Shown here: positions 14,757 through 59,453 of the stretch, one piece after another
Numbering within the stretch: the first letter of the stretch is position 1
Layout of the letters: each line of letters begins with the position of its first letter
NCBI GenBank assembly: GCA_002127295.1
Contig: NFUV01000001.1
Span: 1,612,001-1,676,000 of the forward strand
DNA from: Chitinophagaceae bacterium IBVUCB2
Lineage (GTDB): Bacteria; Bacteroidota; Bacteroidia; Chitinophagales; Chitinophagaceae
Length of the DNA: 64,000 nt
Direction: 5' to 3'
Made by a program: the position numbers and the translations under genes
The notes under the pieces: model-generated
What the model saw: only the letters and a program-made list of their open reading frames with translations
The model's database searches: none
What the model was told of the DNA's origin: nothing

Positions 14757-14831
14757 TGGTAGTCCCGACAAGAATCGAACTTGTATCAAAAGTTTAGGAA
14801 ACTTCTATTCTATCCATTGAACTACGGGACC
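14757..14831 (-). tRNA. tRNA-Arg (anticodon CCT)
   Basis: On the minus strand the 75 bases fold as a full cloverleaf: acceptor GGTCCCG with CGGGACT (first pair G-U), D arm GTTC/GAAT, anticodon stem GAAGT/ACTTT around the loop TTCCTAA, variable loop of four bases, and T arm ACAAG-TTCGATT-CTTGT. The anticodon is CCT, reading AGG. Discriminator A and an encoded CCA follow. A terminator lies just downstream. It stands alone, not in a tRNA cluster. Confidence 0.95.
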
Positions 14832-56447: not shown

Positions 56448-57455
56448 TCAAAGCAGATTTTTCGATAGCATATATTCTGCAATCTGCACTGCATTTGTTG
56501 CTGCTCCTTTTCTAAGGTTATCAGAAACCACCCACATGTTTAATGTTTTTGGCTGACTCTCATCTCTCCTTAGCCTTCCTACAAACACTTCATCTTTTTC
56601 ATGCGCATCCATCGGCATCGGGTAAAACTGTGCAGCATCATCATTCTGTACCACAATACCAGGCGCAGCTGCTAACAGTGATTTTACTTCTTCCAAATCA
56701 AAATCATTTTCAAATTCCACATTCACACTTTCACTATGGCCACCCATTACCGGAATACGAACTGTAGTAGCTGTTACCCGGATAGAGTCGTCCCGCATAA
56801 TCTTACAAGTCTCTTTCACCATTTTCATTTCTTCTTTCGTATAACCATTTTCTAAAAACACATCGATCTGCGGAATCACATTCAGATCAATTTGATATTT
56901 ATACGCCATTGCATGTTCCGCACTCACTCCTTTTACAGCTCTTTCTCTTTCCCCCATTAATTGTTCAACAGCTTTCGCACCAGTGCCGGTTACACTCTGA
57001 TAGGTGCTCACCACCACTCTTTTTATTTTGTATTTTGTATGTAATGGTTGCAATGCTACTACCATTTGTATAGTAGAGCAGTTAGGATTTGCAATAATAA
57101 AATCATCAGCCGTCAGCGCATCAGCATTTACTTCCGGCACTACTAATTTTTTTTTCGGGTCCATTCTCCAGGCACTACTGTTATCAATTACTTTAATGCC
57201 AGCTTCTGCAAATTTTGGTGCCCACTCCAATGAAGTAGTACCTCCGGCAGAAAAAAGTGCCACTGCCGGTTTCGCAGCAATACCATCGGTCATACTCACT
57301 ACTTTATACTTCTTGCCTTTAAATTCTACTTCCTTACCTACCGACCTTTCTGATGCAACCGGAACTAATTCTGTAACCGGAAAATTTCTTTCTGCTAATA
57401 CCTGTAACATTTTGGTGCCTACTAAGCCTGTGGCCCCTACAACTGCAACTTTCAT
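56448..57455 (-). CDS. asd: Aspartate-semialdehyde dehydrogenase
   Basis: 335-residue enzyme that reduces aspartyl phosphate to aspartate semialdehyde, the branch metabolite for lysine/DAP, threonine and methionine. The NADP-binding start VAVVGATGLVGTKMLQVL, catalytic cysteine in IIANPNCSTIQM (near residue 130), STYQSVTGTGAKAVEQL, and the histidine of VMGGHSESVNVEF are all present. Full length. Upstream lies a 188-base leader with a short lysine-rich ORF and an intrinsic terminator, which suggests control by transcription attenuation (see the leader features). Confidence 0.96.
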   Translation of the reverse strand: MKVAVVGATGLVGTKMLQVLAERNFPVTELVPVASERSVGKEVEFKGKKYKVVSMTDGIAAKPAVALFSAGGTTSLEWAPKFAEAGIKVIDNSSAWRMDPKKKLVVPEVNADALTADDFIIANPNCSTIQMVVALQPLHTKYKIKRVVVSTYQSVTGTGAKAVEQLMGERERAVKGVSAEHAMAYKYQIDLNVIPQIDVFLENGYTKEEMKMVKETCKIMRDDSIRVTATTVRIPVMGGHSESVNVEFENDFDLEEVKSLLAAAPGIVVQNDDAAQFYPMPMDAHEKDEVFVGRLRRDESQPKTLNMWVVSDNLRKGAATNAVQIAEYMLSKNLL

Positions 57456-57531
57456 TTTACCTTTTATTTTTAGAATGAGTAATCAATTTTAAACCTCTGA
57501 CCTAACCTTAATAGATGGCTATAAAAAAAAG

Positions 57532-57554
57532 AGGCCTTCCATTTAGGAAGGCCT
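57532..57554 (-). terminator. Terminator-like hairpin inside the asd leader
   Basis: On the minus strand AGGCCTTCC, loop TAAAT, GGAAGGCCT, then CTTTTTTTT: a strong intrinsic terminator. It lies 77 bases upstream of the asd start, and the only upstream neighbour runs in the other direction, so it can only act on the asd transcript. The stem's 5' arm (CCTTCC) can instead pair with GGGAGG just after the leader ORF stop, giving a possible antiterminator. Confidence 0.85.
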
Positions 57555-57598
57555 GCAAAATTTTATGTTGATACACACATAACGCTGCAAAACCTCCC

Positions 57599-57643
57599 TC
57601 AGGAATGTTTCTTATTGCGTTTCGTATGTTTCACTAATGTCAT
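57599..57643 (-). CDS. Putative leader peptide of the asd attenuator
   Basis: A 14-codon ORF: ATG at 57643, TGA at 57599. The peptide reads MTLVKHTKRNKKHS, with four lysines and two threonines among 14 residues, both end products of the pathway that asd feeds. The predicted transcription start (from the promoter at 57652-57683) is only a few bases before the ATG. The terminator hairpin begins 45 bases after the stop. This is the arrangement of an amino-acid attenuator; the regulation itself is inferred. Confidence 0.55.
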   Translation of the reverse strand: MTLVKHTKRNKKHS

Positions 57644-57651
57644 GGTTCGTG

Positions 57652-57683
57652 CAAAAATAAGCGGATGAAACCTTTATCCCAAA
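57652..57683 (-). promoter_or_regulatory. Promoter of asd
   Basis: Minus strand: TTTG (57683-57680), 20 bases, TATTTTTG (57659-57652), an exact match to the Bacteroidota promoter pattern. Transcription should start at about 57646, three bases before the leader ORF. Confidence 0.75.
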
Positions 57684-57743
57684 CAATCAACAAAAAAAAT
57701 GGCGATTTAACCATATTACAACCGTTTGTTTTAACTTGATATA

Positions 57744-59453
57744 ATGAAAGCAGTATTAGCTCTGTTGTTTATTATACTATTGCCCACTCTTTTGCTGGGG
57801 CAGAACAGGTATGATGTGGTAATAGATGAAATAATGGCCGATCCAACTCCACAAATTGGAATGCCGGCCAACGAATGGATTGAATTAAAAAATACAACAA
57901 CAGCACCTATTAACTTACAAAACTGGCGGATCGGAGATGCGACCGGCCAAAGCGGACCCATGCCAAATTTTATTTTACAACCCGATAGTTACGTTATTAT
58001 TTGTACTGGAGGTGCTCTGGCATCGATGACTGTTTTTGGTCCTGCTATTTCGGTTACCAGTTTTCCATCATTAGACAATGATGGTGACCAACTTTTTTTG
58101 CGGGCTGCTAATGGAAGAACTATTCATGCAGTGAATTATACCTCTGGCTGGTACCAGAATGAAGTAAAAAAAGATGGCGGTTGGACCTTAGAAATGATTG
58201 ATACAAAAAATCCATGCGCCGGGAGCAACAATTGGAAGGCATCTATAAATACGGCAGGCGGAACACCAGCTACAAAAAATTCAATTGATGCAATAATTAA
58301 TGACACAAAATCACCTCAATTAAAAAGAGCTTATACAACAGATAATACAACAATAATATTAGTGTATGATGAGCCGGTTGATAGTTTAGCAGGTGCAACT
58401 ATAACCAACTATTCAATTGATGGCGGTTTGACACTTAGCAGCGCAATAACTTTGGCACCTTTATTCAATTTGGTACAATTAAAAACAACCATGCCACTTA
58501 CAGCCAATACAGTTTATAATATAACAGCCACCAATATAACAGATTGCAAAGGCAACGCCATTGGTTCAGCAAACAAAACAAGAGTCGGTTTGCCTTCAGA
58601 TGCCGCTACCGGCGAATGGATCATAAATGAAATATTATTTAATCCTAAGTCAAATGCATTTGACTTTGTAGAATTCTATAACAACAGTAACAAAATATTT
58701 GATGCGGCTAAGCTATATATTGCTAATCGAAATAGCAGCGGCATAATCAGCTCTATTAAACCATTAAGCACAGTGCCTCATTATATTTTTCCGGGTGACT
58801 ATATTGTTGAAACAGAAGATGCCGACAATTTATCGTTACAATATTTAGTTCAAAATCCGGATAATGTGTTTATAGTTAGCTCGCCACCCTCATTTTCTGA
58901 TGATGAAGGAACAGTAGTTGCATTAAATTTCCAGGGGAATGTTGTAGATGAAGTAAAATATAAAGACGACTGGCATTTTAAACTCATCGACAATGCTGAA
59001 GGTGTTTCATTGGAAAGAATTGATCCATCGGGTATTTCACAAGATGAAAATAATTGGCATAGTGCTGCCTCAACAGCCGGTTACGGAACACCTACCTATA
59101 AAAATTCGCAGTATAAATTATTAAATGCCATTGATGCCAGTATACAGGTCACACCAAAAATCTTCTCGCCAGATAATGATGGACGGGATGACATTACCAC
59201 TATTCAGTATGCAGTTACAGAACCGGGTTATATTGCCAACGTTACTATTTTTGATGCAGCCGGAAGACCCATTCGAAGTTTAGTAAGAAATGGAACATTA
59301 GGATTGAACGGTTACTGGAATTGGGATGGCCTGGATGATAAGGGACAAAAAATACCCATCGGCACCTACATTATCTTTACCGAACTATTTAACTTGCAGG
59401 GAAAGAAAGCCTCTTTTAAAAATGTAGTTGTACTCGCAAGAAAAATTAATTAA
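57744..59453 (+). CDS. Secreted lamin-tail-domain protein with FlgD/CHU_C-like C-terminus
   Basis: 569-residue exported protein (signal MKAVLALLFIILLPTLLLGQ). A lamin-tail domain is visible at ~22-140 (YDVVIDEIMADPTPQIGMPANEWIELKNTTTAPINLQNWRIGD), a Big_5/Ig-like part at ~185-285 (IILVYDEPVDSLAGATITNYSID), a second lamin-tail-like part at ~290-445 (GEWIINEILFNPKSNAFDFVEFYNNSN), and an end module at ~470-569 (IFSPDNDGRDDITTIQYAV ... ANVTIFDAAGRPIRSLVRNG) resembling FlgD Ig or T9SS-type ends. Probably a cell-surface or secreted protein of unknown role. Confidence 0.83.
   Translation: MKAVLALLFIILLPTLLLGQNRYDVVIDEIMADPTPQIGMPANEWIELKNTTTAPINLQNWRIGDATGQSGPMPNFILQPDSYVIICTGGALASMTVFGPAISVTSFPSLDNDGDQLFLRAANGRTIHAVNYTSGWYQNEVKKDGGWTLEMIDTKNPCAGSNNWKASINTAGGTPATKNSIDAIINDTKSPQLKRAYTTDNTTIILVYDEPVDSLAGATITNYSIDGGLTLSSAITLAPLFNLVQLKTTMPLTANTVYNITATNITDCKGNAIGSANKTRVGLPSDAATGEWIINEILFNPKSNAFDFVEFYNNSNKIFDAAKLYIANRNSSGIISSIKPLSTVPHYIFPGDYIVETEDADNLSLQYLVQNPDNVFIVSSPPSFSDDEGTVVALNFQGNVVDEVKYKDDWHFKLIDNAEGVSLERIDPSGISQDENNWHSAASTAGYGTPTYKNSQYKLLNAIDASIQVTPKIFSPDNDGRDDITTIQYAVTEPGYIANVTIFDAAGRPIRSLVRNGTLGLNGYWNWDGLDDKGQKIPIGTYIIFTELFNLQGKKASFKNVVVLARKIN

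Follow-up and report, generated by a model that had tools for sequence, protein, structure and literature searches.

A putative leader-peptide attenuator responsive to lysine and threonine in front of asd in Chitinophagaceae

Introduction

Ribosome-mediated transcription attenuators are known as thrL (Rfam family Thr_leader) in enterobacteria and as the trp, his, ilv and phe attenuators. The asd leader described here resembles them in its short ORF with many codons for the regulated amino acids, in the protector, antiterminator and terminator segments and in a downstream gene of the same pathway. Such attenuators have reportedly been the subject of a comparative study by Vitreschak and colleagues in 2004. 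For lysine, the L-box riboswitch is named beside attenuators for histidine, threonine and phenylalanine in the part of the source considered here (PMC1262725). The lysine riboswitch (RF00168) also controls the lysine pathway on the RNA level, but it binds lysine directly.

Within the same phylum, strong clues of leader-peptide attenuation in front of amino acid biosynthesis operons were reported for Flavobacterium psychrophilum, for which the same mechanism was proposed (PMC9723704). The genes are unnamed in the part of this source considered, so an overlap with asd or dapA is possible. Furthermore, short ORFs reminiscent of leader peptides are mentioned for Bacteroides in the considered part of PMC7366714. 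In the corresponding part of PMC2864571, the Bacteroid-trp motif (RF01692), a cis-regulatory RNA motif of the Bacteroidetes which we take, judged by its name, to be a trp leader, is listed together with the Lactobacillales asd motif (RF01732). The same part cites "attenuator-like sequences" in front of asd of Streptococcus mutans (Cardineau and Curtiss, 1987). For RF01732 and the S. mutans element, an RNA-level control of asd has been proposed in another phylum.

Here, the region in front of asd of Chitinophagaceae bacterium IBVUCB2 was analyzed within a stretch of 64,000 nucleotides, called the window in the following. An Rfam scan of the window identified only a tRNA at 14760-14831, and no family reached its gathering score in 57400-57760. 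At the asd leader, Thr_leader, RF01692, RF01732 and RF00168 all stayed below their gathering thresholds; RF01692 and RF01732 are unmatched by the window as a whole, and the lysine riboswitch was found neither in the window nor in the genome it belongs to. In contrast to thrL and its relatives, the asd leader has lysine as its main codon, is placed in front of asd (and of dapA in five genera), and is near-leaderless behind a promoter of the Bacteroidota type. The literature covered, mainly open-access and largely abstracts, yielded no leader-peptide attenuator for lysine at asd or dapA, which agrees with the first-pass annotation, to which no lysine/threonine attenuator of this type at asd was known in this family. 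Therefore, the mechanism is a long-known one, but its lysine-type version at asd and dapA on a near-leaderless mRNA looks new.

Organization of the asd upstream region

The whole element in front of asd spans 57683-57523 on the minus strand (Table 1). The two promoter elements are separated by a spacer of 20 nt, and a further 8 nt lie between the -7 element and the ATG at 57643. The leader ORF comprises 14 residues, and its TGA stop at 57601-57599 is directly followed by GGGAGG at 57598-57593. The terminator stem (57554-57532) consists of nine pairs, six of which are G-C, and the asd ATG is located at 57455. The gene itself was identified by the equivalog TIGR01296 with 433 bits at a cut-off of 324.2.

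Table 1. Features of the asd leader region in window coordinates; counts refer to the 114 family loci described below.
Feature	Position	Strand	Basis
-33 TTTG element of the promoter	57680..57683	-	sequence
-7 element TATTTTTG	57652..57659	-	TAnnTT[T/C]G near leader core in 107/114 loci
Leader ORF MTLVKHTKRNKKHS with stop, near-leaderless	57599..57643	-	sequence, conservation
Region 1: leader codons, partner of region 2 (protector 1:2)	57617..57629	-	fold, two-sided changes
Region 2a GGGAGGTTT: 5' arm of antiterminator (2:3); in the 1:2 fold pairs with the 3' end of the ORF	57590..57598	-	
Region 2b GCGTTATGTGTGT: partner of region 1	57573..57585	-	fold, two-sided changes
Region 3 AGGCCTTCC: 5' arm of terminator and 3' arm of antiterminator	57546..57554	-	
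Region 4 GGAAGGCCT: 3' arm of terminator	57532..57540	-	
T8 tract of terminator	57523..57530	-	
asd, aspartate-semialdehyde dehydrogenase, 335 aa, regulated gene	56448..57455	-	TIGR01296 above cut-off

The promoter, the 14-residue ORF, GGGAGG and the terminator with its eight T in front of asd had been placed at the correct coordinates by the first-pass annotation. Its statement that no other gene could use the terminator also held, since the neighboring gene at 57744 lies on the plus strand, divergent from asd, so that no other listed gene is served by the terminator.

The 141-nt leader folds with -41.7 kcal/mol compared to a mean of -25.2 kcal/mol after shuffling (z -4.7), and none of 200 dinucleotide shuffles was as good. 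Taken by itself, a terminator scan with 3 candidates in 2.5 kb stays close to the chance expectation of 1.9 and is not significant; the significance of the terminator comes from its conservation.

Conservation of the leader peptide

An asd gene is present in 185 of the 195 Chitinophagaceae genomes that were sampled for upstream regions. Upstream DNA was taken from 130 asd loci, namely the 30 top-scoring ones and 100 more, mostly by score order, and the asd start could be placed in 129 of them, the exception being L088. A terminator candidate was present within 340 nt upstream of asd in 117 of these 129 regions, and 115 contained both an ORF candidate and a terminator. L007 ends at a contig edge, L071 is without an ORF, and after removal of the duplicate L022 the set comprised 114 loci.

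The core sequence KHTKRTKK was matched at five or more of its eight residues in 90 of the 114 upstream regions, compared to 2 of 2280 dinucleotide shuffles. Since the ORF most similar to KHTKRTKK was chosen in every region, the identical choice was applied to the shuffles. Among the leaders selected in this way, 113/114 contain at least three lysines and 106/114 at least one threonine. Core positions 1, 4, 7 and 8 are lysine in 88, 102, 98 and 103 of the 114 leaders, respectively. Position 3 is threonine in 91 and isoleucine in 17, and position 6 is threonine in 62, isoleucine in 27, asparagine in 9 and serine in 8. His-2 is kept in 77/114 and Arg-5 in 57/114. The residues flanking the core vary freely, and the core itself is alike across many genera. 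There are exceptions: some leaders are without one of the core lysines, and in one locus of the same genus (L201) glutamate replaces Lys-4.

On codon level, AAA and AAG are both used at the core lysine positions, and asparagine codons account for only 4/92, 2/104, 2/100 and 0/103 of the AA-starting codons at positions 1, 4, 7 and 8, respectively. Since Lys-1, Lys-7 and Lys-8 lie outside the modeled stem, lysine itself appears to be under selection at these positions; Lys-4 is less informative, as its third base also takes part in pairing. As a separate observation, Lys-7 is AAG in 92 of 98 lysine codons and Lys-8 is AAA in 76 of 103, which may reflect avoidance of a slippery A run.

Promoter of the leader

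In 107/114 loci, the 60 nt preceding the leader core contain a TAnnTT[T/C]G box, compared to 7.1% of shuffles and 3/114 windows placed farther upstream. Near the -33 position, TTG or TGG is found in 102 of the 107 loci with a -7 box. The distance from the box to the first in-frame ATG is 7-9 nt in 75 of 106 loci. This box also served to check for a transcription start downstream of the hairpin, and between the terminator and asd it occurs in only 1/114 loci. The motif corresponds to the -7 consensus TAnnTTTG, which together with a -33 element is given as the promoter of Bacteroidota in the part of PMC7366714 considered here. From the placement of the box, the leader probably starts very near the 5' end of its transcript. 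This would be unusual, since only about 3.7% of the 5' UTRs in Bacteroides are shorter than 10 nt (PMC7366714, same part).

Alternative RNA pairings

In the proposed switch, region 2 can pair either with the leader codons (1:2) or with region 3 (2:3), and region 3 can alternatively form the terminator (3:4). Folding 18 loci singly gave three helices: 1:2 joins the leader codons to a TGTATG-type segment farther downstream, 2:3 can form between a GGGAAGG-type arm and the terminator arm CCTTCC, and 3:4 joins this CCTTCC to GGAAGG. Exceptions among the single loci include L014 and L040 for 1:2 and L030 for 2:3. The median energies of 1:2, 2:3 and 3:4 are -17.2, -16.7 and -15.9 kcal/mol, respectively, and three alternatives of such similar energy fit the requirement of a switch.

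When 89 leaders were aligned unguided with MAFFT, RNAalifold predicted no consensus pairs. After this, the structure was given by hand for a covariance model (R1, built from 89 leaders), and energies were tested per locus. Here, the cognate partner in 1:2 binds better than the partners of other loci in 99/114 cases (p 8e-17) and in 2:3 in 75/114 cases (p 3e-5), and the control pairing 1:3 displays no cognate preference (54/114, p 0.6).

For covariation, 93 sequences (82 from asd and 11 from copies in front of dapA) were fitted to R1, in which 1:2 and 3:4 are modeled whereas 2:3 was left out. In this structure-fitted alignment, two-sided changes occur in 15 of the 19 pairs of 1:2 and 3:4 and in 8 of the 10 pairs within the 1:2 helix. 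The number of two-sided cells in 1:2 and 3:4 is 120, compared to 40 in shuffles and a maximum of 29 in slid registers. For 2:3, 88.0% of 824 cells pair, which exceeds every shuffle and all slid registers (maximum 68.4%). Its covariation is modest: 14 two-sided cells were counted compared to 5.9 in shuffles, the number of two-sided pairs was equalled in 45/500 shuffles, and the covariation score of 0.136 is close to the 0.128 at register -1, the latter with far fewer paired cells. The unguided alignment contains 854 cells of 2:3, of which 709 pair, compared to a maximum of 699 in 1000 permutations. Thus, 1:2 covaries strongly and 2:3 modestly. An inner antiterminator pairing TATGT:ACATA looks good by eye, is without covariation support and is not claimed.

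Position of the ribosome relative to the antiterminator

The antiterminator arm starts at a median of 14 nt past the first base of the last core lysine codon, and in 107/114 loci this distance is at least 11 nt. Relative to the leader stop, the arm starts within -15 to +12 in 113/114 loci: either the stop precedes the arm, as in the window, or the arm sits inside a longer ORF, for example one ending in GEGA. A ribosome covers about 12 nt beyond its A site. Judged by these distances and this footprint, a ribosome at the stop would mask the antiterminator arm, and a ribosome stalled at lysine would in most cases not reach it. The distance from the last lysine codon, counted from its first base, to the start of the arm is 11-12 nt in the window; a stall at this codon is therefore borderline, and stalls at the earlier lysine or threonine codons are clear.

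Distribution of the element

The 114 loci are those nearest to the asd of the window, and a survey with R1 therefore gives a less biased figure. R1 matches 239 of 394 Chitinophagaceae genomes in 73 of 101 genera, counted irrespective of the gene behind the match. The other 155 of the 394 genomes are without an R1 match under strict filters, which miss weak matches. Among 392 genomes of the phylum, 16 match, 12 of them Chitinophagaceae. The four weak matches from outside the family (L172-L175, E 4e-4 to 8e-4) have neither a lysine leader nor asd or dapA behind them and are regarded as chance. The same applies to the second match of G022 (L177), beside the end of a ribosomal protein gene, and in the genome of the window, the next-best match (L152, 40.6 bits) coincides with a gene end.

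Out of 80 named asd loci, which lie partly on the same contigs as the family set, 26 are matched at E <0.001. These include Niastella yeongjuensis, Sediminibacterium roseum, Niabella ginsengisoli, Limnovirga soli, Filimonas and Flavihumibacter. At the same threshold, R1 does not match the named asd loci of Pedobacter, Mucilaginibacter, Sphingobacterium, Olivibacter, Dyadobacter, Spirosoma, Hymenobacter, Algoriphagus, Fulvivirga, Kordia, Aestuariivivens and Chitinophaga sp. CF118, nor any of the Flavobacteriales asd loci examined. For three of the named loci (L261, L262 and L282), the upstream DNA is shorter than 240 nt.

Some genomes display peculiarities. At a distance of 156-273 nt before asd, strong hairpins resembling terminators occur in three Pedobacter loci (L264, L267 and L273) that have no lysine leader, and these hairpins may terminate the preceding gene. 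In G155, a genome of 2.0 Mb from the same genus as the window, an asd match is absent; since this genome is rated 100% complete, loss of the pathway is suggested. G699 has two leader matches (C18 and C81), each before asd on its own contig, and a contamination value of 3; this reflects a duplicated asd or else an assembly of mixed origin.

Related leaders in front of dapA, thrA and hisG

The enzyme encoded by asd makes the shared precursor of lysine and threonine, and dapA is the first gene specific to lysine alone. A second copy of the element lies directly before dapA in 13 of the 15 genomes with multiple matches that were examined (L167, L215 and L217-L227), belonging to genera g3, g25, g30, g37 and g86; this set leaves out the third matches of G024 and G121 and the second matches of G603, G636, G670 and G678. 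The identity of dapA is based on TIGR00674 for L167 and was assigned by eye for the other copies.

Nine of the 13 dapA leaders retain the eight-residue core, with valine (6) or serine (3) at position 6, and the four from g25 have a shortened core without threonine (KKYSSKK or KKYACKK). Threonine occurs 0.92 times per leader at dapA versus 1.94 times at asd (p 0.0005), and the lysine content does not clearly differ (p 0.18; L218 was mis-picked and its lysine count is too low); since the dapA copies are few and related, these p-values overstate independence. Furthermore, the asd leaders of g25 and g37 carry isoleucine at position 6, so that the direct threonine contrast rests on g3, g30 and g86. 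The dapA copies suggest that the regulatory element was duplicated and its codons retuned.

Candidate leaders for other amino acids were observed as well. In the genome of the window, an ORF ending in STTTTTTTTR precedes thrA, the gene of the aspartokinase-homoserine dehydrogenase (L310, G000:C1, upstream of 270857, minus strand), and it has no obvious terminator. Before thrA in 9/9 further loci of the same genus with at least 400 nt upstream, a run of Thr or Thr/Ile was likewise present in a short ORF; these ORFs were picked by their threonine run without a shuffle control, L324 being too short and L333 left out. Of three thrA loci from other families, L336 is without such an ORF, and in two the start was not located. 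In front of hisG of the same genome (L314, G000:C1:530761), the histidine-rich leader MIKHTHNHHHFLLPTSRL is found together with the TATTTTTG box and a terminator, making this a probable his attenuator. The histidine pattern occurs at 8 places in this genome, which is about the level of the control (6), and of the 7 places that were read only L314 precedes hisG. In another genus, the second match of G190 (L229) is a histidine leader before hisG. Taken together, the asd, thrA and hisG leaders suggest that leader-peptide control with codons matching the product is probably a habit of this genome.

Proposed mechanism and alternative explanations

The region combines an ORF of end-product codons, a terminator before the gene, an antiterminator that excludes it, the protector 1:2 and, judged by distances, a suitable ribosome geometry. 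We therefore favor, with a probability of roughly 85%, transcription attenuation mediated by the ribosome as in the trp, thr and his leaders, with lysine and probably threonine as the sensed amino acids. In this model, transcription would begin a few bases ahead of the start codon of the leader, whose Lys/Thr-rich sequence a ribosome would translate behind the RNA polymerase. With ample charged tRNA-Lys and tRNA-Thr, the ribosome would arrive at the stop and cover GGGAGG, so that the 3:4 terminator forms and asd is off. Without a ribosome, region 1 would pair with region 2, and the terminator would form again. If lysine or threonine is short, the ribosome would stall on the KHTKRxKK codons, thereby blocking region 1 and leaving GGGAGG free; regions 2 and 3 would then form the antiterminator and asd would be transcribed. 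As sequence features, the ORF, the promoter box, the terminator, the conserved alternative pairings and the fitting geometry are established. From these we infer translation of the leader, stalling, and a response to lysine as the primary and threonine as the secondary signal.

The first-pass annotation had already interpreted the Lys/Thr-rich leader as an attenuator at asd with GGGAGG:CCTTCC as the switch, and the relatives support this interpretation. In the alignment that it had suggested, the leader ORF and its four core lysines are conserved and the terminator and antiterminator pairings covary, that of the GGGAGG:CCTTCC switch to the modest degree and with the cognate preference given above. 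Conservation of the pairing between leader ORF and region 2, the copies at dapA and the companion leaders at thrA and hisG go beyond that annotation.

The same architecture could respond to a different signal, either as an arrest peptide for a small molecule or by reporting translation stress through pausing on basic residues. The conservation of His-2 and Arg-5 beside lysine and threonine, and the similarity of the core over many genera, would fit to this. However, both residues fall in the covarying 1:2 stem, which accounts for their conservation, and the residues before and after the core are free to vary. Moreover, copies exist at dapA, and the codons of the thrA and hisG leaders match their products, which makes a signal other than the amino acids improbable.

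A plain 5' UTR with a chance ORF and a partial terminator, which would constantly lower asd expression or yield a short RNA with a role of its own, is compatible with the near-chance result of the terminator scan. The conservation of the ORF far beyond shuffles, the conserved and mutually exclusive pairings and the promoter box positioned at the ORF start nevertheless make such an arrangement very improbable. Even less credible is a lysine-binding riboswitch or another ligand-binding RNA in which the ORF is incidental. The 5' region is indeed structured and contains a terminator, and lysine riboswitches are found above the cut-off in 7 of 296 genomes of the phylum. But no Rfam family reaches its gathering score at the asd leader, the lysine riboswitch family is absent from the genome of the window under stricter filters, and the lysine codons outside the stem stay lysine despite exchange between AAA and AAG.

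Conclusions

For the family as a whole, it is moderately probable that each branch of the aspartate pathway in Chitinophagaceae has a matching leader peptide, with Thr/Ile at thrA, Lys at dapA and Lys plus Thr at asd, and that the latter two represent the first lysine-responsive leader-peptide attenuator, which is in addition near-leaderless. If lysine is sensed by a leader peptide in front of asd and dapA, this would close a gap in the catalogue.

The phylum Bacteroidota does without classical Shine-Dalgarno initiation. If the attenuator is true, tight coupling of transcription and translation would be implied in this phylum. Since the switch needs a ribosome close behind the RNA polymerase, the presence of the element in 73 of 101 genera would be comparative evidence for coupling, and the element offers a simple reporter for it in this part of the Bacteroidota. 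Furthermore, with leaders at asd, dapA and thrA in related genomes, it could be tested cleanly whether the sensed amino acid is determined by nothing but codon identity.
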